Shown piece by piece: positions 21,012 to 58,815 of a stretch of 64,000 nt of DNA. The notes beneath the pieces were generated by a model. That model saw only the letters and a list, made by a program, of their open reading frames with translations, had not been told where the DNA came from and did no database searches. The translations under genes and the position numbers were made by a program. This stretch comes from a virus. The stretch covers positions 1 through 64,000 of IMG/VR virus record IMGVR_UViG_3300044633_003049; one strand, given 5' to 3'. Within the stretch, counting starts at the first letter, position 1. Each line of letters starts with the position of its first letter.

Positions 21012-21012
21012 T

Positions 21013-23867: not shown

Positions 23868-23868
23868 T

Positions 23869-24111: not shown

Positions 24112-24112
24112 T

Positions 24113-25901: not shown

Positions 25902-25904
25902 AAT

Positions 25905-26606: not shown

Positions 26607-26607
26607 T

Positions 26608-28105: not shown

Positions 28106-28613
28106 TAGTGTTAAAAATCATCTAACAAGATGGTATCAAAAAAATAAAGAATATATTAATTCCGTAAAGTTAGCCGACTTAGGTTCTTTTAATATTAACG
28201 GGAGTACTAGAGATATTATCAATAATTTAACAGGATTTGATATTTTAGAAGGTAAGGGTGTTGATGTTGTAATAAATCCAGGTGTAATTCCACCAAACCA
28301 TATTGGAATATATGGTGCAGTTACATCTATAAGTTCATTTCAATTTTGTCCAGATTCAAATTTATATAAAAAACAAATTATTGATTTACTATATGATGAA
28401 GGTTTATTATTTTTAACTATGTGTAATGATAGATGTAAAAATAATCATTCAACATCACCAAGTAACTATAAAGATTTTGTTGATCAAAAAAGATATTCTA
28501 AAATGGATTTAGAAAATATTTTTAAAGATGATTTTGAAATATTAGAAATCTATGAAACTGGTGAACACAATAACGAACATAGTGATTTAATAATGAAAGC
28601 AAAAAAGAAATGA
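28098..28613 (+). CDS. Methyltransf_11-like protein, 171 aa
   Basis: It opens MHDSVKNHLTRWYQKNKEYI and keeps parts of a class I methyltransferase fold: VKLADLGSFNINGSTRDI in place of the usual SAM-binding Gly-rich loop, GVDVVINPGVIPPNHIG, and SSFQFCPDSNLYKKQI. The SAM loop is poor in glycine, so it may be a degraded or non-canonical methyltransferase. Its tight packing suggests it is still selected. Confidence 0.6.
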   Translation: MHDSVKNHLTRWYQKNKEYINSVKLADLGSFNINGSTRDIINNLTGFDILEGKGVDVVINPGVIPPNHIGIYGAVTSISSFQFCPDSNLYKKQIIDLLYDEGLLFLTMCNDRCKNNHSTSPSNYKDFVDQKRYSKMDLENIFKDDFEILEIYETGEHNNEHSDLIMKAKKK

Positions 28614-29185
28614 AAAGAACTGACATTATAAATCATCTAATCAAAAAGAATAACTATAAACGTTACCTTGAGATTGGTGTTAGAAATCCAGATGAGAATT
28701 TAAATAAAATTACCGTAGAACATAAAGACGGGGTAGATCCTGCCGGTAATTGTAATTACCCAATACCATCTGATGATTTTTTTAATCAATTAGATATTGA
28801 TGTGAAATATGATATTATTTTCATAGATGGTTTACATTTAGACTATCAAGTAGAACAAGACATAACAAACTCATTAAAACATTTAAATCAGGGTGGAACT
28901 ATTGTTATGCACGATTGTAGTCCAATTAAAGAAGAACATCAAGTTGAGGAATATGTTGTTGGAAAAACATGGAATGGTACAACATGGAAAGCATATGTTA
29001 AATTTAGAATGACAGATGAAAATTTATCTATGTGTGTTGTTGATACTGATCATGGTGTTGGTATCATTAAAAAAGGTAAACAAACATTATATCCTAAATC
29101 GGATGTATTAAATTTTAAATTATTAGATGAAAACAGAAAAGAAATATTAAACCTTATAACACCTGAAAAATTTTTAAATTTATGA
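28610..29185 (+). CDS. class I SAM methyltransferase, 191 aa
   Basis: YLEIGVRNPDENLNKI, then YDIIFIDGLHLDYQVEQDI and GGTIVMHDCSPIKEEHQ make up the acidic-strand and D-G-x-H / H-D pattern of sugar/macrolide O-methyltransferases. The first Gly loop is E-I-G-V-R, as in the 187-aa enzyme upstream. It is the fourth methyltransferase-like gene in about 4.5 kb. It overlaps the aminotransferase by 4 nt. Confidence 0.78.
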   Translation: MKRTDIINHLIKKNNYKRYLEIGVRNPDENLNKITVEHKDGVDPAGNCNYPIPSDDFFNQLDIDVKYDIIFIDGLHLDYQVEQDITNSLKHLNQGGTIVMHDCSPIKEEHQVEEYVVGKTWNGTTWKAYVKFRMTDENLSMCVVDTDHGVGIIKKGKQTLYPKSDVLNFKLLDENRKEILNLITPEKFLNL

Positions 29186-30303
29186 TACAAGTATTCAAAC
29201 CACAAATAGACACTGAAAGAATATTAAACGAACTAAGACCAATTCTTAACTCTGGTTGGATTGGGTTAGGTCCTAAAACAAAAGAATTTGAAACCAAGTT
29301 ATCCGAATATATTGGTTCAAAATATTTTGTTGCGTTAAACAGCGCAACTGCTGGTTTACACTTGGCGGTTAAAGTTTTAAACTTGCCACCTAACTCTAAA
29401 ATTATTACAACATCAAATACATTTGTTAGTACCAATCATGCAATTTTGTATGAAGGTCATATTCCTGTGTTTTGTGATAATGAAAAGATGACAGGTAACA
29501 TATCTGCCGATTCAATAGAACAAGCACTCCAAGAGGATAATGAAATAAAAGCAATCATGGTAGTTCACATTGGTGGATATAGTTGTGATATGATTCGTAT
29601 TAATGAAATTGCAAATCGTTATGGTGTTCCCGTTATCGAGGATTGTGCACATTCCTTTGGTGGGATGTACAATGGTAAGATGATTGGTGATACAGATAAT
29701 ATTTGTGTGTGGAGTTTTCAAGCGGTTAAGAACTTACCAGTTGGTGATGGTGGTGCAATCTCAACAAACAATGAAGAGTTGTATACACGATTAAACAAAT
29801 TAAGATGGTTGGGTATTAATAAAGATACAGTATCTAGAAGTAATTTGAACACAGAGAAACCAACATACAATTGGGATTATGAAGTAGAGGAAGTTGGTTA
29901 CAAATATCATTTAACGGATATCGCGTCAACTATGGGTATTATTGGGTTAGAAACAATTAATCAAAATAATTTACGTCGTAGATTAATATCGTCATATTAT
30001 TTAAATAATGTTAAAGGTGCGATGTTACCTGAATATAATACAGATAGAGTCTCTTCATCACACTTCTTACCTTTATTCTTTGAGGATAGGGATGAGGTGT
30101 ATGATTTATTAAAAAACAATGGTGTTTACTGTGGTATGCATTATAAAAGAAATGATAAGTACGAACCATTCAAGGACTTTAAAAAGGTTGGTGGTTTAGT
30201 AAACGCGGAATGGTATGATAAACATGAATTAACATTACCATTACATTTAGGATTAACTGATGAAGATTTGGAAACAATAATTAATGTTATAAATAACAGA
30301 TAA
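29182..30303 (+). CDS. DegT/DnrJ/EryC1 PLP-dependent sugar aminotransferase
   Basis: A 373-residue enzyme. ALNSATAGLHLAVKVL begins the PLP phosphate pocket. VIEDCAHSFGGMY holds the PLP-ring Asp. VWSFQAVKNLPVGDGGAIST carries the Schiff-base lysine in the family position. It would convert a nucleotide-linked keto-sugar to an amino sugar. Lys is present here, in contrast to the paralogue at 57.6 kb. The next gene is an SDR epimerase, so they probably act in sequence. Confidence 0.92.
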   Translation: MIQVFKPQIDTERILNELRPILNSGWIGLGPKTKEFETKLSEYIGSKYFVALNSATAGLHLAVKVLNLPPNSKIITTSNTFVSTNHAILYEGHIPVFCDNEKMTGNISADSIEQALQEDNEIKAIMVVHIGGYSCDMIRINEIANRYGVPVIEDCAHSFGGMYNGKMIGDTDNICVWSFQAVKNLPVGDGGAISTNNEELYTRLNKLRWLGINKDTVSRSNLNTEKPTYNWDYEVEEVGYKYHLTDIASTMGIIGLETINQNNLRRRLISSYYLNNVKGAMLPEYNTDRVSSSHFLPLFFEDRDEVYDLLKNNGVYCGMHYKRNDKYEPFKDFKKVGGLVNAEWYDKHELTLPLHLGLTDEDLETIINVINNR

Positions 30304-31148
30304 TGAATGTACTAGTAACAGGTGGTGCAGGGTTTGTTGGTACAAATCTAATTAAAAGATTAATTAGTGAAGGACATAATGTAACCTCAATTGACAATTA
30401 CAATACAGGATTTGAAAGTAATCACCAAGAAGGTGCGAAATACATTACAGGTGATGTTAGAGAAATTAAACACTACAATGTTTATGGTACTTTTGATATG
30501 GTTTATCATCTTGCGGCAATTGCGAGAATACAACCATCATTTAAACAACCGGTAGAATACTTTGAAACTAATGCGAATGGTACGTTAAATGTTGTTAACT
30601 ATTGCTATAAGAATAATATACCTTTGGTTTACGCTGGTAGTAGTTCACATCATAGTGGTAAATTAAAAAATCCATATACTTTCAGTAAAGATGTGGGAGA
30701 AGAAATTGTTACATTATATCAAGAACATTTTGGATTAAATGCATCCATTGCTCGTTTTTATAATGTCTATGGCCCATATCATTTAAAAAGTGGTGGCTAT
30801 TGTACTTTAATTGGTGCGTGGGAGAAATCAATTGAAAATAACCAACCATTGACAATTTATGGTGATGGTACAAAAAGAAGAGATTTTACACATATAGACG
30901 ATATTGTTGATGGATTAGTAAAAATATTTGAAAAAAATGCTTGGGGTCATATTTTTGAATTGGGTAGAGGAATAAACTTTTCAATAAAGGACATTGCTTT
31001 AATGTTTAATCGTGAGTTTATCTTCTGCAAAGATAAACCAGGGGAGGCTCAAGTAACTTTATGTGAAAATTATTTAGCAAAATTAATATTGGGATGGCAA
31101 CCAACTAAAAATATAAGTGATTATATTAAAAACTATTTAAATAAATAA
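30303..31148 (+). CDS. NAD-dependent sugar epimerase/dehydratase (SDR), 281 aa
   Basis: N-terminal NVLVTGGAGFVGTNLIKRL is the NAD-binding TGxxGxxG. AGSSSHHSGKLKNPYTFSKD contains the Ser and the catalytic YTFSK (YxxxK). RRDFTHIDDIVDGLV is the conserved nucleotide-sugar contact. The usual SS(x)VYG is replaced by SSSHHSG. It overlaps the aminotransferase stop by 1 nt. The product sugar is unknown. Confidence 0.88.
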   Translation: MNVLVTGGAGFVGTNLIKRLISEGHNVTSIDNYNTGFESNHQEGAKYITGDVREIKHYNVYGTFDMVYHLAAIARIQPSFKQPVEYFETNANGTLNVVNYCYKNNIPLVYAGSSSHHSGKLKNPYTFSKDVGEEIVTLYQEHFGLNASIARFYNVYGPYHLKSGGYCTLIGAWEKSIENNQPLTIYGDGTKRRDFTHIDDIVDGLVKIFEKNAWGHIFELGRGINFSIKDIALMFNREFIFCKDKPGEAQVTLCENYLAKLILGWQPTKNISDYIKNYLNK

Positions 31149-31151
31149 AAT

Positions 31152-31727
31152 ATGAAGATAGAATTCGTAATACCAACATACAATAGACCACATCAATTAA
31201 TGAGTGTAATATGTTCTATATTTTCCCAAACATCATCCAATTGGAAAATACATGTTGTTGCAGACGCATTTTACGATGGATATCAAAAAGTAAAAGATTA
31301 TTTTGAAAATGATGAAAGAATTAAATTTACAGAATTAAATGGTCCACATATGGATTGGGGACATACCGCTAGAAATTATGGATTACAAAATACAACTGAA
31401 GAATGGGTAGTGATGACAGGTGATGATAATTATTATGTACCAATTTTTGTTCAAGATTTTTTAAACGAAGTTGATGACAATACTCATTTTGTTTATTGTA
31501 ATATGGTACATAATTGGACACAACAACAATATTTAGTTATTAATTCAAGACCAATAGCAGGTGCAATAGATATTGGTAATTTTATGACAAGAACTCAACT
31601 TTCAAATAAATTAAAAATAAACATTACTAAAGGGGATGCTGATGGTCTATTTGTTGAAGAATACTTATTAAAATACCCTCATGGAACTATAAAAAAAATA
31701 AATAAAGTTCTTTATGTACATAATTAA
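31152..31727 (+). CDS. GT2 glycosyltransferase, 191 aa
   Basis: IEFVIPTYNRPHQLMSVICS is the classic GT2 opening, and WVVMTGDDNYYVP holds the Asp-Asp metal motif at about residues 88-100. At 191 residues it is close to the minimal GT-A domain. The N-terminal half is the strongest match, and the C-terminal acceptor region is short. Confidence 0.85.
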   Translation: MKIEFVIPTYNRPHQLMSVICSIFSQTSSNWKIHVVADAFYDGYQKVKDYFENDERIKFTELNGPHMDWGHTARNYGLQNTTEEWVVMTGDDNYYVPIFVQDFLNEVDDNTHFVYCNMVHNWTQQQYLVINSRPIAGAIDIGNFMTRTQLSNKLKINITKGDADGLFVEEYLLKYPHGTIKKINKVLYVHN

Positions 31728-31733
31728 AATAAT

Positions 31734-32726
31734 ATGAAAATACTAATTACCGGTGTTGCCGGTTTACTCGGATCGAGGTTATCTGATTGGATAATTGAAA
31801 ATAAACCAGAAGTTCAAATTGTTGGTATTGATGATTTAAGTGGTGGATACATTGAAAATGTTAATCCAAAAGTCGAATTGTGGCAAATGAATTTGGTTAA
31901 TGGTAACATTTCAGAATGTTTTGAAAGACATCAATTTGATTACGTTTATCATATGGCAGCTTACGCAGCCGAAGGATTGTCACCGTTCATTAGAAGTTAC
32001 AATTACCAAAACAATTTAGTTGCCACATCACGTATCATAAATGAATGTATTAAACATGATGTTAAAAGATTAGTCTTCACGTCGACACTTGCAATTTACG
32101 GTCATGGTAATGGTAATATATTTGATGAGGCCCAAGTACCAAAGCCAATTGACCCATATGGAGTTGCAAAATATGGTTGTGAAATGGATATACAGATTGC
32201 TGGTGAACAGCATGGACTTGATTGGTGTATCATTAGACCTCACAATGTATATGGTCGTAATCAGAATATATGGGACAAATATAGAAATGTATTGGGTATT
32301 TGGATGTATCAACATTTAAACGGTGAACCAATGACAATTTTTGGTGATGGTTTGCAAACAAGAGCATTTAGTTATATTGACGATATTGTTGAACCATTAT
32401 GGAATTCCTCTGTTAGACCTGAAGCGTCTAAGGAGATTATTAATTTAGGTGGTATTCAAAGTTATAACATTAGAGAAGCAAATACCGTACTGAGAAATGT
32501 AATTGGGGCTGGTGAAGTTGTTTTAAAAGAAGGAAGACACGAAGTTAAACATTCAATTCCCACATATCAAAAATCAATTGATATATTGGGGTTTGAACAT
32601 AAAACAACATTACATGATGGTTTATCTCAAATGTGGGAATGGGTTCAAAAACAACCGAATCGTAAAAGATTTGTTTGGGATAACTATGAGGTGGATAAGG
32701 GAATTTATAGTTTTTGGAAAAAATAA
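31734..32726 (+). CDS. NAD-dependent sugar epimerase/dehydratase (SDR), 330 aa
   Basis: ILITGVAGLLGSRLSDWI is the NAD-binding loop. RLVFTSTLAIYGHGN and DPYGVAKYGCEM hold the Ser/Thr and YGVAK catalytic residues. CIIRPHNVYGRNQN and RAFSYIDDIVEPL are typical of UDP-glucose 4-epimerase-like enzymes. It ends in the TAATG overlap that starts the cytidylyltransferase gene. Confidence 0.9.
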   Translation: MKILITGVAGLLGSRLSDWIIENKPEVQIVGIDDLSGGYIENVNPKVELWQMNLVNGNISECFERHQFDYVYHMAAYAAEGLSPFIRSYNYQNNLVATSRIINECIKHDVKRLVFTSTLAIYGHGNGNIFDEAQVPKPIDPYGVAKYGCEMDIQIAGEQHGLDWCIIRPHNVYGRNQNIWDKYRNVLGIWMYQHLNGEPMTIFGDGLQTRAFSYIDDIVEPLWNSSVRPEASKEIINLGGIQSYNIREANTVLRNVIGAGEVVLKEGRHEVKHSIPTYQKSIDILGFEHKTTLHDGLSQMWEWVQKQPNRKRFVWDNYEVDKGIYSFWKK

Positions 32727-33142
32727 TGAAGAAAGTATACACTGGCGGAACATTTGATTTATTCCATAGAGGACATGTGAATTTTTTGAAACAATGTAAA
32801 GAAATTGGTGATTATATCGTTGTGTCATTAAATACTGACGATTTCATCTATAGATATAAAGGAAAATACCCAATAATGAATTACGAAGAAAGACGTGATG
32901 TTTTATTAGGTTGTCGATACGTTGATGAGGTTATACCAAATACTGATGGTGAAGATTCTAAACCGGCAATATTGACTATTAAACCAAAATTCGTTATAAT
33001 AGGTAGTGATTGGGCAAAGAAAGATTACTATGGACAAATGAATTTTACCCAACAATGGTTAGATGATAATGGAATCATTTTAGTTTATTTACCATACACT
33101 GAAAACATATCCACAACATTAATTAAAGAAAAATTGAAATGA
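32726..33142 (+). CDS. nucleotidyltransferase, glycerol-3-phosphate/sugar-phosphate cytidylyltransferase type
   Basis: 138 residues: MKKVYTGGTFDLFHRGHVNFL with the HxGH-type nucleotide-binding motif (HRGH), YEERRDVLLGCRYVDEV and ENISTTLIKEK (S-T-T-x-I-K/R) closing the active site, all typical of TagD/HldE-like cytidylyltransferases. It activates a phosphorylated polyol or sugar as a CDP (or ADP) derivative. The start codon forms TAATG with the preceding stop. Confidence 0.9.
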   Translation: MKKVYTGGTFDLFHRGHVNFLKQCKEIGDYIVVSLNTDDFIYRYKGKYPIMNYEERRDVLLGCRYVDEVIPNTDGEDSKPAILTIKPKFVIIGSDWAKKDYYGQMNFTQQWLDDNGIILVYLPYTENISTTLIKEKLK

Positions 33143-34359
33143 AAAAATTATTTAGTTTAGGTGAATTATATGTATCTGACTTCATTAAACAAGATGAAGA
33201 TGCGAGAGCGGGTAAACATGATTTATCATTAGTAATCGATGAAAGATATGGTGCGGCGAGATTAGAAAAATGTACACCGATTCATTCTATGTTTGGTAAA
33301 TATTGGTATCGTAGTGGTGTTAATACGACTATGAAGAAAGAATTATCTGATATTGTTGATAGTATAGTTAAAGTACAGAAACTTGAAAAAGATGACCTGT
33401 GGTTAGATATAGCATGTAATGATGGTACATTATTAAGTTATGTACCTAAACACATATCTAAATTAGGTATTGATCCAGCCGACGAGACGTTTGCAATAGA
33501 ATCTAGAAGAGTTTCAGATGAAATTATTCAAGATTACTTCACGTTAGAAACATTCAATCGTTCTAAATTTTCATCAAAGAAAGCTAAAGTTATAACTTGT
33601 ATTGCGATGTTTTATGATTTAGATGAACCGATTGATTTCTTAAAAGATATTATTGAAGTATTAGATGATGATGGAATATTTGTACTTCAAATGAGTTATA
33701 CACCACTGATGATTAAACAATTGGCATTTGATAATATATGTCATGAACACGTATATTATTGGTCATTAACATCTTTACAAAAATTAATGGTTGATGCTGG
33801 ATTAAAAATTGTTGATTGTCAACTAAATGATTTGAACGGTGGTAGTTTTAGAGTATACATTAAAAAAGAAAATTCCGACATAACTAAATTTGCAACAAGA
33901 CCATATAGAGATGTTTGCGATGTTAGAATTGAATCTGTACTTAAATGGGAAGAGACTCAATATTTAGATTCATTAGATACGTGGTTAGATTTTTTTCAAG
34001 GTATTGAAGATTTAAAAAAACAAACTGTGGATTTTATTAAAGAAGAAAAATTAAAAGGTAAAAGGATTTGTGGTTATGGTGCATCAACTAAAGGAAACAC
34101 ATTATTACAATACTTTGGTTTAGATAATACATTAATTGATGCTATCGCCGAACGTAGTCCATACAAATATGGTTATAAAACAATTGGAACAAACATACCA
34201 GTGATATCCGAAGATGATGTTAGGTCGATGAATCCTGACTATCTATTAATATTACCTTGGCATTTTATATCCGAGTTTACAAAAAGAGAAGAAGAATACT
34301 TAAATAAAGGTGGAAAATTAATTGTACCTTGTCCTAAATTTGAAATAATTAAAAAATAA
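33139..34359 (+). CDS. SAM-dependent sugar C-methyltransferase, 406 aa
   Basis: Layout of the TylC3/NovU-like C-methyltransferases: an N-terminal metal-binding-like segment, a central SAM domain (DLWLDIACNDGTLLSYV, about residues 88-104; ICHEHVYYWSLTSLQKLM) and a C-terminal Rossmann-like domain (RICGYGASTKGNTLLQYFG, then DYLLILPWHFISEF). Family members methylate C3 of dTDP-4-keto sugars. The N-terminal zinc ribbon usually has four cysteines, and only one is evident here, so the metal site looks lost. Confidence 0.85.
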   Translation: MKKLFSLGELYVSDFIKQDEDARAGKHDLSLVIDERYGAARLEKCTPIHSMFGKYWYRSGVNTTMKKELSDIVDSIVKVQKLEKDDLWLDIACNDGTLLSYVPKHISKLGIDPADETFAIESRRVSDEIIQDYFTLETFNRSKFSSKKAKVITCIAMFYDLDEPIDFLKDIIEVLDDDGIFVLQMSYTPLMIKQLAFDNICHEHVYYWSLTSLQKLMVDAGLKIVDCQLNDLNGGSFRVYIKKENSDITKFATRPYRDVCDVRIESVLKWEETQYLDSLDTWLDFFQGIEDLKKQTVDFIKEEKLKGKRICGYGASTKGNTLLQYFGLDNTLIDAIAERSPYKYGYKTIGTNIPVISEDDVRSMNPDYLLILPWHFISEFTKREEEYLNKGGKLIVPCPKFEIIKK

Positions 34360-34362
34360 AAA

Positions 34363-35463
34363 ATGAATATTAGTTTTGTATTAGCAGTTTATAATAAATT
34401 AGAATTAACAAAAGAATGTTATAAACATCTACGTAAGATTTATCCTAAATCACCATTAGTAATTAGTAGTGGTGGTTCAAGTGATGGTACTAAAGAATGG
34501 TTAGAATCTTTAAAAGATGAAAACTTATCTTTCTTTCATGATGATGACAGATTAACATTTTCTGAAACATATAACGCTGGTATTGATTTAGTTGATACAG
34601 AAAAATTAGTTCTAATTCATAATGATATGGTTATCGGTAAACATTTTTTAGAGAACTTAGATAAATTAATTGATGAGAATCCTAATACATTGTTATCATA
34701 TACAACAATTGAACCTCCAATATTTGCTGGTCATCAAAGACCTGGTAAAGTAATATTAGATATGGGTACTGGTTTTGATAATTTTAATAAAAAAATGTTT
34801 GATAAGTACGTTAAACAAAACAAAGATAAATGTGAACTTTACGATGGTGCTGTTTTCTTTATGAGTGGTCGTAAAGATATGTTTGTTGATTTGGGTGGGT
34901 TTGATGGATTTAGTTTTGTTCCATGTTTTTGTGAGGATGACGATTTTTTAATTAGAGCAAAATTAAAAGGGTATAAACTAAAAACAACAGAATGTGCAAT
35001 CACATATCACTTTGTTTCACAAACATCAAGATTCAGTGATGAAATGAAAGATAAGAGACAAAATATTGAGATATTTTCAAACAGAAATTTCGTAAGAAAA
35101 TGGGGTACTGTAATTTCAACATTTAATCAAGTGAAATACCAACAGAAAGAAGATTTTACATATAAGAATTTAAATATGGGTTTAACAATAAATGATGATA
35201 GTAATTTAATTTTGTTAGAACCATTTTTTAATAAAATTAATTTAGGTATAATTCCTCAAGATTATATTGATGCTGAACAACCAACGACTCGATATAGTTT
35301 AAAAACTAAATTTGAAAATTATGATGATGTTGATGTTATGGTAAAATTAACATCTGTTTTAACACAAGAAGATTTTAACAATATAACAGTATTGAAGATG
35401 ATTATTCAGGAATACGAACCTGGTATGTATTCTATTGGTAATTTATCTGTGGAAATTAAATAA
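34363..35463 (+). CDS. GT2 glycosyltransferase with C-terminal extension, 366 aa
   Basis: ISFVLAVYNKLELTKECYKHL opens a GT2 domain. KLVLIHNDMVIG has the metal-binding His-Asn-Asp. LGGFDGFSFVPCFCEDDDFLIRAKLKG is the acceptor/ED motif (about residues 178-204). About 100 residues follow the core and are of unknown role. It is the last rightward gene and meets the leftward block tail to tail with 1 nt between stops. Confidence 0.85.
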   Translation: MNISFVLAVYNKLELTKECYKHLRKIYPKSPLVISSGGSSDGTKEWLESLKDENLSFFHDDDRLTFSETYNAGIDLVDTEKLVLIHNDMVIGKHFLENLDKLIDENPNTLLSYTTIEPPIFAGHQRPGKVILDMGTGFDNFNKKMFDKYVKQNKDKCELYDGAVFFMSGRKDMFVDLGGFDGFSFVPCFCEDDDFLIRAKLKGYKLKTTECAITYHFVSQTSRFSDEMKDKRQNIEIFSNRNFVRKWGTVISTFNQVKYQQKEDFTYKNLNMGLTINDDSNLILLEPFFNKINLGIIPQDYIDAEQPTTRYSLKTKFENYDDVDVMVKLTSVLTQEDFNNITVLKMIIQEYEPGMYSIGNLSVEIK

Positions 35464-35464
35464 C

Positions 35465-36112
35465 TTAATCGTTATTTCCGAAGGCATATATTCCTAAATG
35501 TTTTATATCCATACTTAAAATTGTATCAATATAAACATTAAATTCATTTAATCTTAATTTGGTTAATAACATAAAATCTTCACCATACCAATCTTGAGTG
35601 TCTCCTTTGTATGTGAATTCAAAATATGGTTTTTGTAATGAATTGAAGATTTCAGTTTTCATTAACATACATCCCATTCCAACACCTTCAACTTTTATTA
35701 AATCATCTTTAGGTTCTAATGGTAACCAACTATCCCAATTTCTTAAATCGGTATATGCGACAGTTTTTAAAGGTTTAGACCTTTTCATGTAATTACATGC
35801 AACAATATCTTTATTGTGTGCTAATAGTCTTAATGCGGTTGTGGATGGGAACATCATATCACTATCTAACCACAAAACATAATCACATTTAATGTCTTTA
35901 GCATTTTCTATTAACTTTTCTCTTTGATTTAAAAGAATAGTACTGGAATCAAAAAACAAATATGTGTCGATACCAGCTTCAGATGTTGTTTTAATTAATT
36001 GTGCTAAACAATAAGCAAATTGTGAATGAACAGTATCTCTAGTTGGTACTAAAATCGCAAGTTTAGTTGATTTACTATCCCATAGTGAACTATTTTGTAT
36101 TGATTTACTCAT
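35465..36112 (-). CDS. GT-A glycosyltransferase-like protein, 215 aa
   Basis: LAILVPTRDTVHSQFAYCLAQLI and YVLWLDSDMMFP with Asp-Ser-Asp (DxD) at about residues 80-91 identify a GT-A fold. GEDFMLLTKLRL gives the E-D motif downstream. Proteins of this kind are frequent in phage structural regions and may glycosylate virion proteins. The start overlaps the preceding stop (ATGA). Confidence 0.8.
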   Translation of the reverse strand: MSKSIQNSSLWDSKSTKLAILVPTRDTVHSQFAYCLAQLIKTTSEAGIDTYLFFDSSTILLNQREKLIENAKDIKCDYVLWLDSDMMFPSTTALRLLAHNKDIVACNYMKRSKPLKTVAYTDLRNWDSWLPLEPKDDLIKVEGVGMGCMLMKTEIFNSLQKPYFEFTYKGDTQDWYGEDFMLLTKLRLNEFNVYIDTILSMDIKHLGIYAFGNND

Positions 36113-36589: not shown

Positions 36590-36808
36590 TTAATATGTGC
36601 CCGATCCTGATAAACCACCGAAATCTGAACTTTCTTGTGATGCTGAACCTGAAGGTATACTTGCAACTGCTGAATATGATCTATTACGTCCAACACCTAA
36701 AGTTGAGTTTAACCCCACTTGTACTTGACCCGGAGTAGCTGCCAGTCCTAAAACTACACTAATTCTTCCCATACTTACTTCGGTTCCCGTTGCTGGTACT
36801 GTACCCAT
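36590..36808 (-). CDS. small Gly/Ser-rich virion-type protein, 72 aa
   Basis: MGTVPATGTEVSMGRISVVLG followed by a low-complexity Gly/Ser/Thr stretch ending GGLSGSGTY. The pattern (short, S-M-G-R-I near residue 12, N-R-S-Y-S in the middle) matches small proteins I associate with virion regions of Bacteroidota phages. It sits directly downstream of the fibre gene, across a stem-loop, and has a TATTTATA motif 29 nt upstream. It is probably a minor structural protein. Confidence 0.6.
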   Translation of the reverse strand: MGTVPATGTEVSMGRISVVLGLAATPGQVQVGLNSTLGVGRNRSYSAVASIPSGSASQESSDFGGLSGSGTY

Positions 36809-36889: not shown

Positions 36890-38701
36890 TTATTTTATTT
36901 TTGCTTCTAAAGCTTCAACACGATTTAATAATTCTTTGTTTGTTTGAATTAACAATGCAACTAATTTTTCGTATTTAACCGCCATATAACCGTTCTCTCT
37001 TGTTGTTACGATTTCAGGTAAAACTGCACCAATTTCTTGTGCAACCACCCCTATATCATGACCTTCATTCTCATGTATACCTGGCATTTCCTTCCAATCG
37101 AAGTAATAACCATTTATTTGTTTTAAGATATCTAAAGAATTTTCAATTGGTGTGATGTTTTCTTTTAGTCTTTCGTCAGAACCGTAGTACGCAATAACAT
37201 CATTTGTTGCTCTAATTAAACCTGCGGTTGTTGGTGGAGTACCAGCACCAACAAGTAATGCGTTAAATTGAACGTTTGATGATGTTGCAACCGCTTGACC
37301 GATTGATATTGTAACCGCTCCCGTTCCTGCACTTACACCAACACCTGTACCTGCAACTGCCGAAGTTACACCCGCATTTGTTAATGTTACAGTACCACCT
37401 AATGATACCGCACCACCACCACTCATACCTGTTCCTGCTGAAACCGTTACTGATGAGTTAGTTAACTTACCATTTGCAACGGATGTATCAACTAATTGTG
37501 AACCATTTATTGTTTTGTTTGTAAGTGTTTGTGTACCACTAATAGTTGCAATTTCAAGTTCAGATCCTAAAGGACCTGCTATCCACTTATCAGTTGTTGT
37601 ATTCCATAATAACGAACCTGATACTAATGATGCTGCGGTTGCGTCTCTAACAACCAAACCCGCATTTGCCGCTCCTGAACCATTTAATGATATAATATTA
37701 TCTCCAATTTCAACGGTTGTTGAGTTGACTGTTGTAGATGTACCAGAAACGACCAAATTACCGCCAATAGTTACAGTTGTACCATCATCAGTTATTGATG
37801 AGTCACCCACAGTTGATGCAGAAGTAAATTTAACTACTTTATTGTTAGTACCTGATGTTGTGATTGAAGTTCCTGAAGAACCATTAGTTCCATTAGAACC
37901 TGAAGAACCATTTGTACCATTGGAACCAGAAGTACCATTTGTACCATTGGAACCTGATGAACCTGAACTACCATTCGTTCCATTAGAACCTGATGAACCG
38001 TTCGTACCATTACTACCACTTGTTCCTGAAGAACCATTTGTTCCGTTACTTCCTGAAGAACCGTTTGTACCTGAAGTACCGTCAGTTCCATTAGAACCGC
38101 TAGTACCTGATGAACCGTTAGTTCCGTTAGAACCTGATGTTCCTGAAGAAGCTGCTGTATATGATGTTCCGTTAATGAATAATGAACCAGTCACAACCAT
38201 ACTACCACTAACCGACATACTACCTGTGATAGATTGACTACCTGTAATATTTTGACTACCTACTAATGTACTTTGACTTGATCCTGCTGAACCTGTTGGA
38301 GGAACTGGAAGACCCACTGAAGCCAAACTCGCTGAAGTTTGTACAACTTGAGCACCTACTTGTATTGTACCATCAGAGTTTGTACTGATAGCTTTAATTC
38401 CACCAATAAAGATAGATCCTGTTGATACGTAGATGTCCTTCCACCAATGTGTTGCGTCACCTAAATCGTAAGCATTATTAACAGAAGGAATTATTGATCC
38501 ACTAATTGTCTGATTTGCGGTGAATAGGTTACTACCTGTGGTTGCAAAACGAGCGGAACCTGTTGTGTTTAGGGCCGAAGCGTTTGATGTGGTACCACTT
38601 ATGGTGGCATTTATTGTTCCGTCTACCTGAAGATCTCCAAAAAAACGAGCTGCGCCCGATACATTAAGTGATCCCGAGATGTTTGCGTCAAATATTTTCA
38701 T
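36890..38701 (-). CDS. collagen-like tail fibre with S74 intramolecular chaperone
   Basis: A 603-residue fibre. Residues 1-186 are Ser/Gly/Thr-rich beta repeats (TGSIFIGG-like). Residues 187-279 are about 31 Gly-X-Y triplets without proline. Residues 280-505 are beta-helix-like with a recurrent SGTQTLTNKTING pattern. From residue 508, SDERLKENI starts a Peptidase_S74 intramolecular chaperone that ends in a coiled coil (LLNRVEALEAKIK). In S74 fibres the chaperone helps trimerisation and cleaves itself off before this serine. It is the receptor-facing candidate of this phage. The 998-aa glycosyltransferase gene is directly upstream. Confidence 0.92.
   Translation of the reverse strand: MKIFDANISGSLNVSGAARFFGDLQVDGTINATISGTTSNASALNTTGSARFATTGSNLFTANQTISGSIIPSVNNAYDLGDATHWWKDIYVSTGSIFIGGIKAISTNSDGTIQVGAQVVQTSASLASVGLPVPPTGSAGSSQSTLVGSQNITGSQSITGSMSVSGSMVVTGSLFINGTSYTAASSGTSGSNGTNGSSGTSGSNGTDGTSGTNGSSGSNGTNGSSGTSGSNGTNGSSGSNGTNGSSGSSGSNGTNGTSGSNGTNGSSGSNGTNGSSGTSITTSGTNNKVVKFTSASTVGDSSITDDGTTVTIGGNLVVSGTSTTVNSTTVEIGDNIISLNGSGAANAGLVVRDATAASLVSGSLLWNTTTDKWIAGPLGSELEIATISGTQTLTNKTINGSQLVDTSVANGKLTNSSVTVSAGTGMSGGGAVSLGGTVTLTNAGVTSAVAGTGVGVSAGTGAVTISIGQAVATSSNVQFNALLVGAGTPPTTAGLIRATNDVIAYYGSDERLKENITPIENSLDILKQINGYYFDWKEMPGIHENEGHDIGVVAQEIGAVLPEIVTTRENGYMAVKYEKLVALLIQTNKELLNRVEALEAKIK
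37865..38143. repeat. collagen-like coding repeat (about 31 Gly-X-Y triplets)
   Basis: Imperfect tandem units of 9 and 15 nt encoding GSN, GTN, GSS and GTS triplets. X and Y are almost only Ser, Thr and Asn (one Asp), never Pro. Slippage or recombination in the repeat could change fibre length. The opposite strand carries a long spurious Pro/Glu/Val-rich reading frame. Confidence 0.9.
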
Positions 38702-38767
38702 AGGTTATATTGTTATACCCTAATAAATACTTTATAAATCACATTTGTGAAATAAATCTATAAATTT

Positions 38768-41764
38768 TTATATTAATTTATCAATTTCTTTTATGACATC
38801 TTGACCTGTGATTGATTTGGAACATTCAAATTGTTGTTTTGTACCTTTATTTACAGGGCACCAGTTCCAATCTCCAGGGTTAAAATCGTAAACATTCCAA
38901 CATCCATGACAAACATCTTTATTAATAATTCTTGAAACTCCGATTGTTGGTTCACTATATTCCTCACTAAAACCTGAAATGATGACACAAGGAATACCCA
39001 CAGACCACGCCAACCAACTTAATCCACTACCAATACCTATAAAAAGTTCCGACTCTTCTAAAACTTGAATTACCTTCTCGATTGGTCCTGATTTTTGTTG
39101 TACGACCCCTTGTGGGTTCTTATTACCCATATATCCATCCTCTTCTCTAGATAATAATCTTACCTCATAACCTTTCCTTTTAAGATGATTAACCACTTGT
39201 TGCCATCCTGTTGCGTTGTTCCAATACTTACATTGTGATGTTGAATGGACAGCAATACACACTCTTTTCTTTTTCTTATTACTAAAAGTTGGTAATTTAG
39301 GTCTAATCTCTTTATATTCTAAACCCAATATATCCGTTGCCATTTTACCCAATGGTTCTACTTTAGGATTGGACGGATGATTATCATATCTAATTGTTCT
39401 TTTATCATCATAAAATAAACCTAATCTATATAGACCATAAATGTTATTCACCCCAACACCAGGTTCCACAAATTCAATTTCAGGATATTGCCCTTTAAAT
39501 AAATCATTTTTAAATGTTGAACATATAATATGACACTTATTTTTAATTCTAAACTCTTCTACATATGGTATCCACGCTAAACTATCCCCCAAAGATTTAG
39601 ATTCGAAACATATCATAATTCTTTGACCTTCAGGATTAAATTTCTCCTCTCTATAAAAATTATTATCAATACCTTTAATCTTAACAATCCAATTAACATA
39701 ATATTTTTTAGATGCTCTTGTCCAATGATTACTCTTGATGTTGGTTTCATAGACAATGTCACCCGTATCCCCATCAATAAATTGAACATTGTACTGGTGT
39801 TCATTATCCTCATTAATTTCAACAAATGGACCATCTACGAAATGTACATTTGTTCTTCTATTTGATGCGACCTTTCTTTCAAAATATAACATTTGTAAGT
39901 TGTCGTTACCTCCACAAAATAAAGTAAAATGACCAAATCCTAATCCTGCCATTCTTTTGATAAGGTTTTCTCTTAGTTCAACATTATACCCTAATAAATT
40001 ATGGTGATATTCCATTGCTATGTTTCTAACCTTTAATAGATTTTCATCCGATATACCTAAAAATGCGTGATGTTCAGCACCTTCAATATCCATCTTTAAA
40101 AAATCTATTTTATTTACAACACCTGTTTCAAACAAATGATTTAATGTATATGTTTTAACAGCATAAGTGTTAGTTACTTCATTTGTTTCCAATAATGTAG
40201 ATCCACCTAAATGTCCAGTTTCGGATAAAACCAATTCACCCATCTCATCCGCAATTGCACCATTATATAATATTGAACGTGGGTCGGCATTTTTTGAAAG
40301 TAATTGGAAATACCTTCTATCTGGTTCAAATGAAATTACTTTAGACGCACCTTGACTATAAGCCCATCTATTAAAGATACCTAAGTTTCCTCCTAAATCA
40401 ACTACCACATCTCCATCAAATATTCGTTTGTCTTGATTGGGGAATTTATAATAATCTTTTAAATTAAAAATTTCATGATAAATTGCTCTCGGCCAACCAA
40501 ACTTATCCGCAACTTCAAGAGTCCCTCCTTGGTAATCTTTAATGTCCCCTAAATTTTCTAATACGTCTACATCTGTGTAGAATTTTCCTGATTTATAAAA
40601 ATCATCTTCTCTAATTGTTTTCTTTTCCATTAATATTTCTGATGCTGTTTTTGCTATTTTATCCCAATTGAAATCTATATGAATTTCCTTTGATTCTTCT
40701 ATTGCGAATGATTTAAACTTTTTATAATCATTCATTACATTTAACATTTGTTCTCCCAAATCTTTCCAATCTGGTTCACAATATTCACCAGGGAAATCTT
40801 TATGTTCCACATTTGCAGGTCTTAAACCATCTATCTTAACGGGAACACCATTACCTTCCGCAAATTCTAATTGACCTCCCCAATTAGAGTAAATTGATGG
40901 TGTTCCACAAGCCATAGCCTCAATCAACGGTAAGTTCCATCCCTCACTACGAGCACAAGTAACGAACACGTCACCTTCTTGTAGATACTTCACATAATCC
41001 TCTCTTGGGGTGAACTTAATAAAGTTAATATTCTCATCATTAATATTATGATACTTAACCCTTTCATCTGTGGTCTTCATTCCGTCGTATGCGTATGGGT
41101 TTTCAACTGACGCAATCAACTCCACATCGGTTCTACCTTTAAAAACCTCACCAAATGTCCTTAAAACCTCTGTAGTTCCTTTTCTATAATCCCATCTACC
41201 AAAGTGTAAGAATCTAAATTTATCTTTCTTTGGTGTCTTATTTAACGGTTTAAATGTCTCCACATCAACTCCTTCAGGTACAATTGATATTTTTGATGAT
41301 GGATATCCTTGTTCAACCAAACAATCAAACTGCCATTGGGTCGGTACCCATACCTCATCAAAATACATTAATCTTTTAAAGAAATCTTGTGGGTAACGTG
41401 TTGATTCCCAAACGTTATATGCTATCTTATATCCATCGTAATTCTCGTGAAAATAATAGTTGTTCATATCCACCAATACAATATGAACGTCAGGTTTATA
41501 ATCATTCTTATAACCATACATAGGTAAATGAGATCTACTACCATCACCATTGATTAGGGTTTGTAGAATTAACATATCCTTCATCTCATCGGTGATATAT
41601 GGTTCATCATCATGAGGTGTATCGTTCATTCCCTTCCAACCCCCACCTATGGTAGAGTTTCTAACCTTAACTGTGTGGTATTTGTTCAGAGCACAAAAAA
41701 AGGACTTTGCGTGATTAGCATATCCTGTTACTCCGATAAAACATGTATGTGCAAGTATTTTCAT
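38768..41764 (-). CDS. GT4 + FkbM methyltransferase + BAHT-like heptosyltransferase fusion, 998 aa
   Basis: Three modules. Residues 1-375: GT4 transferase (FLHFGRWDYRKGTTEVLRTF; ARSEGWNLPLIEAMACGTPSIY). About 440-640: FkbM-type methyltransferase (VVVDLGGNLGIFNRWAYSQG; IDFLKMDIEGAEHHAFLG). About 700-998: GT9-like domain (RIMICFESKSLGDSLAWIPY; GPIEKVIQVLEESELFIGIG) ending in CHGCWN...WCP...FECSKS (Cys952, 955, 969, 981). That end matches the iron finger of autotransporter O-heptosyltransferases, which glycosylate serines of surface proteins. It stands immediately upstream of the collagen-like fibre, its obvious candidate substrate. Confidence 0.88.
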   Translation of the reverse strand: MKILAHTCFIGVTGYANHAKSFFCALNKYHTVKVRNSTIGGGWKGMNDTPHDDEPYITDEMKDMLILQTLINGDGSRSHLPMYGYKNDYKPDVHIVLVDMNNYYFHENYDGYKIAYNVWESTRYPQDFFKRLMYFDEVWVPTQWQFDCLVEQGYPSSKISIVPEGVDVETFKPLNKTPKKDKFRFLHFGRWDYRKGTTEVLRTFGEVFKGRTDVELIASVENPYAYDGMKTTDERVKYHNINDENINFIKFTPREDYVKYLQEGDVFVTCARSEGWNLPLIEAMACGTPSIYSNWGGQLEFAEGNGVPVKIDGLRPANVEHKDFPGEYCEPDWKDLGEQMLNVMNDYKKFKSFAIEESKEIHIDFNWDKIAKTASEILMEKKTIREDDFYKSGKFYTDVDVLENLGDIKDYQGGTLEVADKFGWPRAIYHEIFNLKDYYKFPNQDKRIFDGDVVVDLGGNLGIFNRWAYSQGASKVISFEPDRRYFQLLSKNADPRSILYNGAIADEMGELVLSETGHLGGSTLLETNEVTNTYAVKTYTLNHLFETGVVNKIDFLKMDIEGAEHHAFLGISDENLLKVRNIAMEYHHNLLGYNVELRENLIKRMAGLGFGHFTLFCGGNDNLQMLYFERKVASNRRTNVHFVDGPFVEINEDNEHQYNVQFIDGDTGDIVYETNIKSNHWTRASKKYYVNWIVKIKGIDNNFYREEKFNPEGQRIMICFESKSLGDSLAWIPYVEEFRIKNKCHIICSTFKNDLFKGQYPEIEFVEPGVGVNNIYGLYRLGLFYDDKRTIRYDNHPSNPKVEPLGKMATDILGLEYKEIRPKLPTFSNKKKKRVCIAVHSTSQCKYWNNATGWQQVVNHLKRKGYEVRLLSREEDGYMGNKNPQGVVQQKSGPIEKVIQVLEESELFIGIGSGLSWLAWSVGIPCVIISGFSEEYSEPTIGVSRIINKDVCHGCWNVYDFNPGDWNWCPVNKGTKQQFECSKSITGQDVIKEIDKLI

Positions 41765-44953: not shown

Positions 44954-46015
44954 TTATATTAAAGTTTTATTAGTGTTATCAATAAACTCATATAAATTAT
45001 GGAATAGATTTTGATTTTTCCATATTTTATTAAATTCTTTTTTAAATAATTCATGTTCTGGATGTTCGGCATCCCATACTTGTTTTAATTTAAATTCACC
45101 TTCGGAAAATGTTCCCCAATTTGTTATCTTTCCAAAAAACACATCTACTTTTTTTCTAAATATAGAATACATTAAATTATAAAATGTTTCCATTTCCATA
45201 TAATTACTATCTTGAACAACAAACGATGTTTTAACACGTATTGGTAATGTATTGATAAATTTAAGATTATTCATTAAATTTTCCCAATTGCCACCTATTC
45301 TTGTTTTATTTTCGTAAGTATCTTTAGTGCCAGCGTCTATACTGATTTCACAAGTGTTTACATAATTATGAATATTTGGCATACTATCCCACATTTTTTT
45401 ATCCCACATACTTGCATTTGTATGTAAATGAATTGATATTAATTTTGGATATTTTTTAGGATTAAAATTTCTTAAATAATTTCTAAACCCCACCGATACA
45501 AATGGGTCACCTGAACCAGTTATGTATAGTGTTTTTACATTTGCAGAATAATAATTATCTATATCTTCAATTGTTTTTTCAACACGTTGTATACCTTCTC
45601 CATTTTCAACAATTAAATCAATTCTACATGAAGGGCATTTATAATTGCATGTCCTGTCAAAATTCATTATAAGATAATCCGGTGTATTATTTTTTATAAT
45701 AGGATTATAAAAACTTGGGTTTAATTTTGTTTTTAAAGTAACGGGTCCAGATGTTACCCCGTAATTTACCAATTTACTTAAATATGGGCAAAGTTCTTTA
45801 TTACAATATTTAAATGAACCATCTAAAATAGAATTTCTAATATCAATAACAGGTTCACTATTATATACATCTTTTAAAGGAATCTCATTAAGTTCTATTT
45901 TATTTGGTAACCAAGATGGACAACATACAAAGCAAACATTATTATGTATTTCTAATGAATTAAATGGAACACTACAAACATAATTTTTTAAATCTATATT
46001 TTTAAATGTATTCAT
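44954..46015 (-). CDS. radical SAM enzyme with N-terminal SPASM-like domain, 353 aa
   Basis: MNFDRTCNYKCPSC gives the CX3CX2C cluster motif (Cys123, 127, 130). LYITGSGDPFVS and SIDAGTKDTYE are later core strands. Before the core, residues 14-76 contain VCSVPFN...VCFVCCP...CNKELCP with an R-N-S-I-L-D-G-S-F block. This looks like the auxiliary-cluster SPASM/twitch domain normally found at the C-terminus. Auxiliary clusters suit peptide-modifying rSAM enzymes. It ends NKTLI. The iron-sulfur module at 11.4-12.4 kb could supply its clusters. Confidence 0.88.
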   Translation of the reverse strand: MNTFKNIDLKNYVCSVPFNSLEIHNNVCFVCCPSWLPNKIELNEIPLKDVYNSEPVIDIRNSILDGSFKYCNKELCPYLSKLVNYGVTSGPVTLKTKLNPSFYNPIIKNNTPDYLIMNFDRTCNYKCPSCRIDLIVENGEGIQRVEKTIEDIDNYYSANVKTLYITGSGDPFVSVGFRNYLRNFNPKKYPKLISIHLHTNASMWDKKMWDSMPNIHNYVNTCEISIDAGTKDTYENKTRIGGNWENLMNNLKFINTLPIRVKTSFVVQDSNYMEMETFYNLMYSIFRKKVDVFFGKITNWGTFSEGEFKLKQVWDAEHPEHELFKKEFNKIWKNQNLFHNLYEFIDNTNKTLI

Positions 46016-46492: not shown

Positions 46493-47092
46493 TTAAATTA
46501 AAGTTTTATGGTTTTTAATGTCCATATTACCAATTCTATATTTGTTAGAAATATTTAAATATTCATCATAATATTCTTTATTATATACAATTCCCAATTC
46601 ATCAAATATCGGTTGAAAATCACCATAATATAAATCTTCATAATAAAATAGAGGTACATTATATGTATTAGATGTGGTTTTTATTTTTTGTATGTGATTA
46701 TTTGTAATCTCACTATAATGTTCAATTTCACTTTCAGTTATATTGTGTATGTTATATTTTCTTTTTGTGGTGTTTAAATATGACATTTCTTTATTCACTA
46801 AAATATGACTTTCTATTTGGGATTTAAGGTCTTTTCTTATTAAAAAAATAACAGTATCAAAATCAGAAATTAATGTTTCTAATGAACATGGTAGATGGGT
46901 TAATGTAGATTTTATAAATAAATTATCGTTTTTAATTAATTCATTGTACTCCGTATTTTCGGTATGTATATTTTTCTTTGCCCATGGAAACCATGGTTCA
47001 TTATAACAAACATAATTAGGTTTTAATTTTGCAAAATACTTCAATAAGGAAGTTGATCCTGTTCTAGCGATATATATTAATGCGATTTTCAT
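46493..47092 (-). CDS. sulfotransferase-like protein, 199 aa
   Basis: From MKIALIYIARTGSTSLLKYF the protein carries the sulfotransferase PAPS loop (RTGSTSL, about residues 10-16). It then has FDTVIFLIRKDLKSQIESHI with the 3'-phosphate-binding Arg and Ser, and LFYYEDLYYG late in the fold. It should transfer sulfate from PAPS to a glycan or protein hydroxyl. The start at 47092 forms TAATG with the SET gene and is preferred over one 7 codons upstream. The APS kinase at 50.0-50.5 kb could make its donor. It ends NHKTLI. Confidence 0.82.
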   Translation of the reverse strand: MKIALIYIARTGSTSLLKYFAKLKPNYVCYNEPWFPWAKKNIHTENTEYNELIKNDNLFIKSTLTHLPCSLETLISDFDTVIFLIRKDLKSQIESHILVNKEMSYLNTTKRKYNIHNITESEIEHYSEITNNHIQKIKTTSNTYNVPLFYYEDLYYGDFQPIFDELGIVYNKEYYDEYLNISNKYRIGNMDIKNHKTLI

Positions 47093-47472
47093 TATATAAA
47101 TCGGTGGGCCCATTTTTCTAAATATCCTTCTCCATAATTATGACAAATTTCTTCACCAATTTCAATATCTTGAGTGGCTATAAATTCTACTATTTTACCT
47201 ATATTTTGCCAAGTTATGTTTGGTGTATCACTATGATTATATATTGCACCATACCCCACTGGCATTATTGCGTCGTGGTTCTGATGATTTTTTGTGTTTA
47301 ATACAAAACAATAATCTTTTAACGGTGTAGTTTTATAATTATCAATTATTCCGTAACATTGTTCTACAATTTCATCTTTTAATATTTTTTCTTTACAAAA
47401 GACACCCCAACCTTTTTTAGTATCAATAAATTTTATATAAATTTTATTTGATGTATGGATTTCTGTTATCAT
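47092..47472 (-). CDS. SET-domain protein methyltransferase-like, 126 aa
   Basis: KKGWGVFCKEKILKDEIVE (SET-N, residues 19-37), GYGAIYNHSDTPNITWQNI (the NHS block, Asn79-His80-Ser81) and IEIGEEICHNYGEGY (GEE...NYG, about residues 104-117) are in the right order and spacing. SET enzymes methylate lysines, and the terminal Tyr of the catalytic NYG is present. At 126 residues it is a minimal SET core without pre- or post-SET zinc clusters. The target is unknown. Phage SET proteins are rare. Confidence 0.82.
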   Translation of the reverse strand: MITEIHTSNKIYIKFIDTKKGWGVFCKEKILKDEIVEQCYGIIDNYKTTPLKDYCFVLNTKNHQNHDAIMPVGYGAIYNHSDTPNITWQNIGKIVEFIATQDIEIGEEICHNYGEGYLEKWAHRFI

Positions 47473-47880: not shown

Positions 47881-49410
47881 TTATTTTTGGTTACATGCGA
47901 GACATTGAATCGTTTTTAGACATTGTCTATCGTTCCATGATAGTGGACAACACTGCTGGTTTTTTCCACATATACCACCGAACTCACAATTATTTAAACT
48001 TTCATATGTACAATCCACTCCATTATGTTCAATTGAAACATATGATTTATCTGAGTCCACATCTGATTTTGTTAAGAATATATGAGCGTTTTCTACGGTT
48101 ATTTCATACCCACCAAAAAATTCAGAAACCATTTCAATATTTGATACTTCTTTTATTATAAATAAAGGTGTTTCAAAATTTAATGTATCTAATAATAATA
48201 TATTGTCACCAATAACCATTGAATCATCGTTATCCCCACCATTTAGTTTTAAAAATCTTACTTCATTATTTCTAATTGAAAGGTAATTTGAATGTCGGTT
48301 ATCAAACCAATCACTACCATCGGTAAATGTTATTTTAACAATTTTAGAATATGTATTCACTCGTCTTATGTTAGTAATAGCATTTGTTGAGTATGTTGTA
48401 CCACTCTCTAATTCGGATTGTGATATTCTATAATTTGCAACTGCGCTCATATCTACAACATCAAATGGATTAGGAATATCGATTGTTTTTAATACATCCC
48501 CTACCACCAATTCGGTTGCAACCTTGTATGTACCATCACTCATCAATACCAAGTCTGTATCTGATAATTTTGGTAGTAATAATTGATAATTACCTGCAAT
48601 ATATTTTTCACGACCATTTGTTAATTCAAATGTAGTAGGATTAAATGATGAGTTTATTGTAATCTTATCATCGCATGCTCTTGTATAACCACCTAATGAT
48701 ATAGATTCTAAATTTGGTGGGAATAATAAATTTAATCCTCTAAAAACTTTTATATGGTCTTGTATTAATTCAGATTGATTTAAATGAAACTCCATTAAAA
48801 AATAATCAGAAGTAACTACATTTGAAATAAGACTATCTAATTCTTCTTGTGTAGATACTTTATAAAATTTAGGATAAACTTCTTTATCATAATCAGGTAA
48901 TCTTGCTTTTAAAATAAAATTTGGATGTTCCCCATTATCGTTAATTGTTGTTATATTACTAACGATTGAATTGTTTTCATCTAAATAAGCAAATTGAGAC
49001 CCAAAAGAAGAATCTTTTATTAAATTTAAAAAATTAACTTTATCTCTACAATATGTGTCATCTACCAATGCAGTGGTGTCGTAAGCACTTCTAATAATTA
49101 GAGTTTGATTGTTATCCTCAACAAATGGGATGGTGATTGAGTTTGTATATACCAAATGTTTTTCATATTCAATTCCTAATGTGGTACATGAACCTGATAA
49201 TTCTACATCTAAATTAGAAATATTTCCGATATATACGACTTTGGTAAAAGAATTATCGGTTATAAATGTAGTCAATGTTGTTAAATCCAACAGTGAGTCG
49301 GTTTCTTCAATTGTATTATTATGCCAACCAACTGCGGTATTGATTTCAATTGGTTTTAAATTACCATCTTTGTCGTACATAAAGTCCGAACCTATTAATA
49401 CTGTCCTCAT
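47881..49410 (-). CDS. virion-type protein with degenerate Hint-like domain and Cys-rich tail, 509 aa
   Basis: The N-terminal part begins MRTVLIGSDFMYDKDGNLKP and IEINTAVGW, recalling the metal-binding IEIN end of ATP-grasp folds. Residues about 290-460 look like a Hint (hedgehog/intein) fold: DLVLMSDGTYKVATELVVGD, RHSNYLSIRNNEVRFLKL, SMVIGDNILLLD and ITVENAHIFLTKS. The splicing nucleophile and the terminal His-Asn are not where inteins need them. The last 45 residues contain eight cysteines (CTYE...CEFGGICG..QCCP...QCLKTIQCLAC). A TATTTATA motif lies 18 nt upstream, and a late structural or effector protein is likely. Confidence 0.7.
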   Translation of the reverse strand: MRTVLIGSDFMYDKDGNLKPIEINTAVGWHNNTIEETDSLLDLTTLTTFITDNSFTKVVYIGNISNLDVELSGSCTTLGIEYEKHLVYTNSITIPFVEDNNQTLIIRSAYDTTALVDDTYCRDKVNFLNLIKDSSFGSQFAYLDENNSIVSNITTINDNGEHPNFILKARLPDYDKEVYPKFYKVSTQEELDSLISNVVTSDYFLMEFHLNQSELIQDHIKVFRGLNLLFPPNLESISLGGYTRACDDKITINSSFNPTTFELTNGREKYIAGNYQLLLPKLSDTDLVLMSDGTYKVATELVVGDVLKTIDIPNPFDVVDMSAVANYRISQSELESGTTYSTNAITNIRRVNTYSKIVKITFTDGSDWFDNRHSNYLSIRNNEVRFLKLNGGDNDDSMVIGDNILLLDTLNFETPLFIIKEVSNIEMVSEFFGGYEITVENAHIFLTKSDVDSDKSYVSIEHNGVDCTYESLNNCEFGGICGKNQQCCPLSWNDRQCLKTIQCLACNQK

Positions 49411-52296: not shown

Positions 52297-52297
52297 A

Positions 52298-53506: not shown

Positions 53507-53508
53507 TA

Positions 53509-54519: not shown

Positions 54520-54580
54520 ATTTTAATTCTAATTTATTTCATATTATAATCATTATTCCTCACATTTTAAACAATCAAAT

Positions 54581-56649: not shown

Positions 56650-56650
56650 A

Positions 56651-58796: not shown

Positions 58797-58815
58797 AATT
58801 ATGTTTTATATATAA

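Follow-up and report, generated by a model that had tools for sequence, protein, structure and literature searches.

Why does a phage carry a gene for a three-domain sugar-modifying enzyme immediately in front of a fibre gene, and what would such an enzyme modify? The question arises in a window of 64,000 nucleotides, positions 1-64,000 of the 211,784-bp record IMGVR_UViG_3300044633_003049, which comes from a large uncultured tailed phage. Here an open reading frame (ORF) joins a GT4 glycosyltransferase, an FkbM methyltransferase and a domain of the bacterial autotransporter heptosyltransferase (BAHT) family, and the next gene encodes a collagen-like fibre:

38768 to 41764, minus strand: GT4-FkbM-BAHT fusion ORF, 998 amino acids
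36890 to 38701, minus strand: tail-fibre-like protein, 603 amino acids, matching PHROGs long-tail-fibre and baseplate families; the proposed acceptor

Judging from sequence comparison and a structural model, we consider it likely that the phage makes the 998-residue protein, which would be a bifunctional glycosyltransferase/methyltransferase, to decorate its own collagen-like fibres, and that it would O-glycosylate Ser/Thr in their Gly-X-Y repeats, extend the glycan with its GT4 domain and methylate it with its FkbM domain. The fusion is genuine, because fusion and fibre were found at 100% identity in two further metagenome assemblies (L002 and L003), which rules out an assembly artefact as its source.

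The C-terminal domain and the BAHT family

The domains follow one another along the fusion protein as listed:

40622 to 41764, minus strand: GT4 domain, residues 1-381, with the E-x7-E-type motif SEGWNLPLIE
39875 to 40600, minus strand: FkbM methyltransferase domain, residues about 389-630, with the S-adenosylmethionine motif VVDLGGNLG
38771 to 39847, minus strand: BAHT glycosyltransferase domain, residues 640-998, matching TIGR04414 and TibC (4rap)
38822 to 38911, minus strand: putative iron-finger segment, Cys952-Cys981, by alignment to the TibC cysteines

A preliminary description of this locus had read the protein as a three-domain enzyme whose last ~300 residues are GT9-like and of BAHT type, and the profiles of Pfam and NCBIfam bear this out. 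All three domains score above their cut-offs: PF00534 (GT4) at residues 178-303 (E=4.4e-14, 52.8 bits against 26.4), TIGR01444 (FkbM) at residues 453-587 (77.5 bits against 37.7), and the equivalog TIGR04414 at residues 642-996 (E=1.9e-85, 287.1 bits against 200). TIGR04414, the autotransporter strand-loop-strand O-heptosyltransferase, is the best NCBIfam match of the C-terminal domain, in which PF01075 (GT9) also matches, and a PDB sequence search found TibC (4rap) at E about 2.5e-59 to 1.8e-58. The fold of all 998 residues predicted from the single sequence was uninformative (predicted local distance difference test, pLDDT, 33). An AlphaFold2 model of residues 640-998, built from 47 viral relatives, reached a pLDDT of 92.1 and a predicted template-modelling score (pTM) of 0.90. 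Overlaid by Foldseek, this model matched 4rap with a template-modelling (TM) score of 0.88 (E 1.6e-36); ranks 1-21 were all TibC chains (TM 0.84-0.89), and the next best, WaaF/WaaC, reached only ~0.5. A plain GT9 or lipopolysaccharide (LPS) heptosyltransferase was rejected on this low score and on TIGR04414 being the top NCBIfam match.

The cysteines at 952, 955, 969 and 981 have exactly the spacing first described, C-x2-C-x13-C-x11-C, with the only CxxC of the fusion protein at 952. All four align to the TibC iron ligands C339, C342, C358 and C370 (residue numbers: PMC4358343), in agreement with the predicted TibC-like iron finger. They are invariant among 47 dereplicated viral relatives, and no exception occurs among the 50 viral and 6 near bacterial rows of the alignment; thus, the pattern is not due to chance. 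D727, T842, K846 and W917 correspond to TibC D110, T226, K230 and W305, the catalytic base and donor residues, of which D110, K230 and W305 are invariant in the same 50 viral and 6 bacterial rows and T226 is nearly so. Because family profile, fold and active-site residues agree, the C-terminal domain is, as far as sequence and model can tell, a BAHT. It resembles TibC/AAH (TIGR04414; PDB 4rap, 4rb4; PMC4358343) in its fold, N-terminal beta-barrel segment, catalytic Asp, phosphate-binding Thr/Lys, sugar-contacting Trp and four-Cys iron finger. It differs in forming the C-terminal domain of a fusion, in having Gly at TibC P300 and C-x13-C in the finger instead of C-x15-C, and in its neighbour, a collagen-like fibre rather than a beta-helix autotransporter.

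A further difference concerns the donor. TibC cannot do without Arg286, which bonds the N1 of the adenine in ADP-heptose (PMC4358343). V898 occupies this position in the window protein, so the adenine-contacting Arg is absent. The position holds Arg in 92/92 autotransporter-type rows, against 1/50 viral and 0/6 near bacterial rows; Val, Ile, Leu, Thr or Ala stand there in 49/50 viral rows and Ile, Val or Met in 6/6 near bacterial rows, while Arg seems to persist in a few viral sequences further removed. These residues suggest that the donor in the viral and near-bacterial clade may be other than ADP-heptose. With Arg286 lost, the name heptosyltransferase is not established for the window enzyme; of the BAHT-like domain first proposed, it is membership of the BAHT family that is supported. 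In a tree, the viral and six bacterial sequences lie on one side and 92 autotransporter-type BAHTs on the other (support 100), which places the former, on sequence grounds, in a distinct branch. Compared with autotransporter BAHTs, the thumb beta-hairpin lacks 3 residues and the finger 2, and because of the shorter thumb the oligomer may be assembled differently from the TibC dodecamer ring. The replaced Arg and the shortened thumb and finger would also suit a catalytically dead domain whose iron finger serves as an oligomerising scaffold for GT4 and FkbM, but the conservation of D110, K230, W305 and, nearly, T226 indicates purifying selection on the active site, and we regard a dead scaffold as very improbable.

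Linkage to Gly-Ser/Thr-X proteins in phages and bacteria

The fibre gene starts 66 nt downstream of the fusion ORF and runs in the same direction, which confirms the arrangement first noticed, an enzyme gene directly upstream of a fibre whose Gly-X-Y region is full of Ser/Thr. Its product has both features of a collagen-like tail fibre, a Gly-X-Y tract and an S74 chaperone:

37865 to 38143, minus strand: Gly-[Ser/Thr]-[Asn/Ser] tract of 31 triplets, residues 187-279, PF01391 E=3e-13; the proposed glycosylated region
37007 to 37180, minus strand: Peptidase_S74 intramolecular chaperone, residues 508-565, PF13884 E=2e-17

The 31 triplets are uninterrupted, with Ser/Thr at X in 31/31 and Asn (16), Ser (14) or Asp (1) at Y, and the fibre partner is of the same family in relatives of the window locus. 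The Asn-Gly-Ser/Thr sequons of the fibre were also considered, and they are not evidence for N-glycosylation because they arise automatically from Gly-[S/T]-Asn repeats. Six further Gly-Ser/Thr-X ORF segments lie elsewhere in the phage genome, so there may be acceptors besides the neighbouring fibre, and one enzyme may serve several fibres. The initial idea that the phage glycosylates its own fibre is thus supported as regards the pairing and the BAHT domain, though its acceptor may be more than this one fibre.

The pairing is not peculiar to this phage. A scan of viral contigs yielded 126 relatives. The 79 loci retrieved from among them form 48 clusters at 90% identity, 47 of them with a downstream gene. 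The directly downstream gene encodes a collagen-like/S74 fibre in 26/47 clusters, compared with 3/610 other genes of the same loci (Fisher p=1.5e-30), and the gap between enzyme and fibre is usually 45-100 nt. In the reciprocal direction, TIGR04414 exceeded its cut-off in 17/32 viral contigs (40 kb or longer) that bear a GTSGSSG-type tract, in 0/31 viral contigs with a proline-type GPKGDTGP tract (p=8e-7) and in 0/33 P-loop-motif control contigs, many of them larger (p=3e-7), these Fisher values being only indicative because the contigs are phylogenetically non-independent and the proline-type ones smaller on average. The partner collagens carry Ser/Thr at X in 2707/2800 triplets (97%) and Ser at Y in 84%.

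Adjacency to a fibre could also reflect general clustering, if the enzyme belonged to the large sugar island at about 21-64 kb of the window and acted on a surface polysaccharide or lipid of host or phage; the flanks are indeed rich in sugar-nucleotide enzymes, glycosyltransferases and methyltransferases and include one carbamoyltransferase. We consider this improbable in view of the downstream enrichment, the lack of TIGR04414 in contigs with other collagens, the same association in bacteria without phage islands, and a catalytic domain of the protein-modifying BAHT family rather than the LPS heptosyltransferase family.

The bacterial association is as follows. The nearest bacterial genes (n=6) encode stand-alone enzymes of 43-47% identity from Methylobacter, other Methylococcaceae and a Polaromonas. 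Five of these six loci have a Gly-X-Y ORF (at least 8 triplets) within 3 kb, encoding small proteins with 12-37 Gly-Thr/Ser-X triplets, most with a signal-peptide-like N-terminus; at the sixth (L094), the gene just upstream carries shorter, interrupted Gly-Ser/Thr runs. When the sample was widened to 201 genomes of the same bacterial order, with Arg286 and the longer finger defining the autotransporter type, a Gly-[ST]-x ORF lay within about 1.5 kb of 7/8 clade genes and 0/4 scorable autotransporter-type genes. No BLAST similarity was found between bacterial and phage partner proteins once the repeat had been masked; the Gly-Ser/Thr-X repeat is argued to be the acceptor because it is the sole shared element found. 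Taken together, the phage and bacterial data point to collagen-like fibres of Gly plus Ser/Thr as the predicted new target to which this BAHT branch has moved. Synteny, co-occurrence and cellular homologues thus independently back the presumed functional pairing with a collagen-like fibre that the preliminary description had put forward.

Several observations weigh against glycosylation of the Gly-X-Y repeat. TibC modifies Ser and not Thr (PMC4358343), and Thr is frequent in the partner repeats; the loss of R286 bears on donor and activity, as R286A cripples TibC (PMC4358343). No directly downstream fibre is present in 21/47 clusters, some of which have a fibre nearby or end at a contig edge, and 15/32 Gly-Ser/Thr contigs show no BAHT, though the contigs are incomplete. 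The known BAHT acceptors are serines of beta-helices, not of triple helices (PMC4358343). One partner (L024) is S74-capped yet has no Gly-X-Y run, and it keeps repeats similar to the I/V-S/T-G-S ones (such as VSGS/VTGS) that precede the collagen region of the window fibre (residues about 150-178). The last two points would suit an enzyme that modifies such a beta-structured part of the fibre in the manner of TibC, with the Gly-X-Y tract as a bystander. This is unlikely in our view: phage and bacterial partners share the Gly-Ser/Thr-X tract only, one bacterial partner (L091) is a 102-aa protein consisting mostly of that tract, and the strand-loop-strand acceptor repeat TIGR04415 had no match across the 211,784-bp record.

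A carrier of such genes exists among isolated phages. Microcystis phage Mel-JY01 (L089) encodes a 149-triplet collagen-like protein and a 1227-aa GT4...BAHT fusion (2-3052 and 4747-8430), the latter annotated solely as an FkbM methyltransferase. Of all phage matches to the window genome, the tail sheath of Mel-JY01 is also the best.

Proposed course of modification and related systems

For the favoured modification of the collagen-like repeat, we infer that the enzyme is active, which residues accept the sugar, which sugar it is, when and in what order the steps occur, and what the phage gains. The BAHT domain, with its GT-B fold and D727 as predicted catalytic base, would take a sugar from a nucleotide-sugar and place it, as the first of the glycan, on Ser, possibly Thr, at the X and partly the Y position of the repeat. 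Its acceptor would be the neighbouring fibre and probably also the genome's six other Gly-Ser/Thr-X proteins. The GT4 domain would next add a second sugar, and the FkbM domain would O-methylate a sugar hydroxyl of the glycan. The benefit might be fibre stability or solubility, shielding, or altered receptor binding. More broadly, we lean slightly towards a history in which the BAHT branch found both in large phages and in some methane-oxidising bacteria exchanged its beta-helix adhesin targets and ADP-heptose for Gly-Ser/Thr-X collagen-like proteins and another donor, and in which a phage operon (GT4, FkbM, other methyltransferases and further domains) builds a methylated oligosaccharide on virion fibres, collapsed here into one polypeptide.

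Known systems invite comparison: SgtA of C. difficile is a GT-A type enzyme, and virion glycosylation in mycobacteriophages involves, to our knowledge, neither a collagen-like fibre nor a BAHT. The sgtA gene lies immediately upstream of bclA3, and SgtA O-glycosylates the collagen Gly-X-Y repeats of BclA3 (PMC7157674). The window pair has the same order of glycosyltransferase and collagen-like surface protein; SgtA/BclA3 differs in its UDP-GlcNAc donor (PMC7157674), its GPT repeats and its spore location, and involves no BAHT, fusion or phage. Mycobacteriophages glycosylate their own capsid and tail-tube subunits, according to the citing article (Freeman et al. 2023, cited in PMC12619734), and the targets named there are other proteins than those of the window system. 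Mimivirus reportedly encodes collagen glycosyltransferases that act on viral collagen (PMC9546862); these are unrelated enzymes of a eukaryotic virus, with a hydroxylysine-linked modification.

UniProt holds a phage protein named 'Glycosyltransferase Aah/TibC' by automatic annotation, so the presence of the family in phages is already on record. Literature searches found no paper on phage heptosyltransferases together with collagen-like proteins, only unrelated papers (by title and abstract) on TibC and phages, and no paper on the acceptor of phage Aah/TibC proteins or their link to collagen-like fibres. The preliminary reading of the locus is largely supported, and the window enzyme would represent a collagen-directed branch of the BAHT family. 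Proline-free collagen-like fibres are common among environmental phages, and we know of no settled account of what stabilises their Ser/Thr/Asn triplets or what these serve for. An O-glycosylation system dedicated to such fibres would be an answer open to testing; it would also connect protein glycosylation with phage host recognition, add an acceptor class to a structurally understood enzyme family and supply an enzyme for glycosylated collagen-like materials. The putative enzyme-substrate pair is also present in methanotrophs.

Origin of the fusion and its surroundings

Most viral BAHTs form the C-terminal end of a larger protein, where they follow a ~350-aa domain, a GT4-like domain, or a methyltransferase plus the ~350-aa domain. 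A separate protein of ~906 aa, which begins with GT4 and ends with FkbM, is encoded shortly upstream of the BAHT gene in 27 relatives, the order often being this protein, a ~220-aa Methyltransf_24, BAHT and fibre. Residues 1-381 of the fusion are 84% identical to the separate upstream protein of L015, residues 333-628 are 60% identical (with a gap) to the C-terminal part of that protein (55-60% across relatives), and residues 635-998 are 66% identical to the downstream BAHT protein. By these alignments the fusion is a condensed operon from which the middle domain, the small methyltransferase and the ~350-aa domain were dropped, and such a collapse speaks for GT4, FkbM and BAHT acting in one pathway. 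Separate GT4-FkbM and BAHT genes also occur in a Bacteroidetes-binned contig of a metagenome-assembled genome (L093, CAIWBA010000291.1), which groups with the viral loci L048, L050 and L053 and is probably phage or prophage.

Between enzyme and fibre lies a short spacer:

38702 to 38767, no strand assigned: intergenic spacer with a promoter-like element, AGTATTTAT...GTATAA, at 38713-38731 on the minus strand, before the fibre start

The element is conserved in 13 aligned loci, and its position between the two genes in relatives makes separate transcription of the fibre gene probable. Six of the 10 genomic sites of AGTATTTAT sit 17-34 nt before an ORF start on the same strand (window 38731, 49438 and 7544, minus strand; record 111946, 120898 and 99390), and it is a candidate late-promoter motif. 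A 72-aa ORF (MGTVPATGTEVSMGRIS..., window 36590-36808, minus strand) is kept after the fibre in many relatives.

A search for the large terminase with PF17289 gave no match. The sugar island (window 20995-36112 and 50629-63839) contains, by eye, aminotransferases, GMD- and epimerase-like enzymes, a cytidylyl/adenylyltransferase, the carbamoyltransferase, many glycosyltransferases and SGNH-like proteins. Upstream of the fusion, four small 2-oxoglutarate-Fe(II) oxygenases (PF13640; 43248-43745, 43742-44296, 44432-44947 and 46016-46492, minus strand) lie near a radical-SAM protein (44954-46015) and a SET-domain protein (47092-47472), possibly further modification enzymes. A 509-aa ORF (47881-49410, minus strand) shows by eye a Hint/intein-like middle (LVLMSDGTYKVATELVVGDVL) and a Cys-rich C-terminus.
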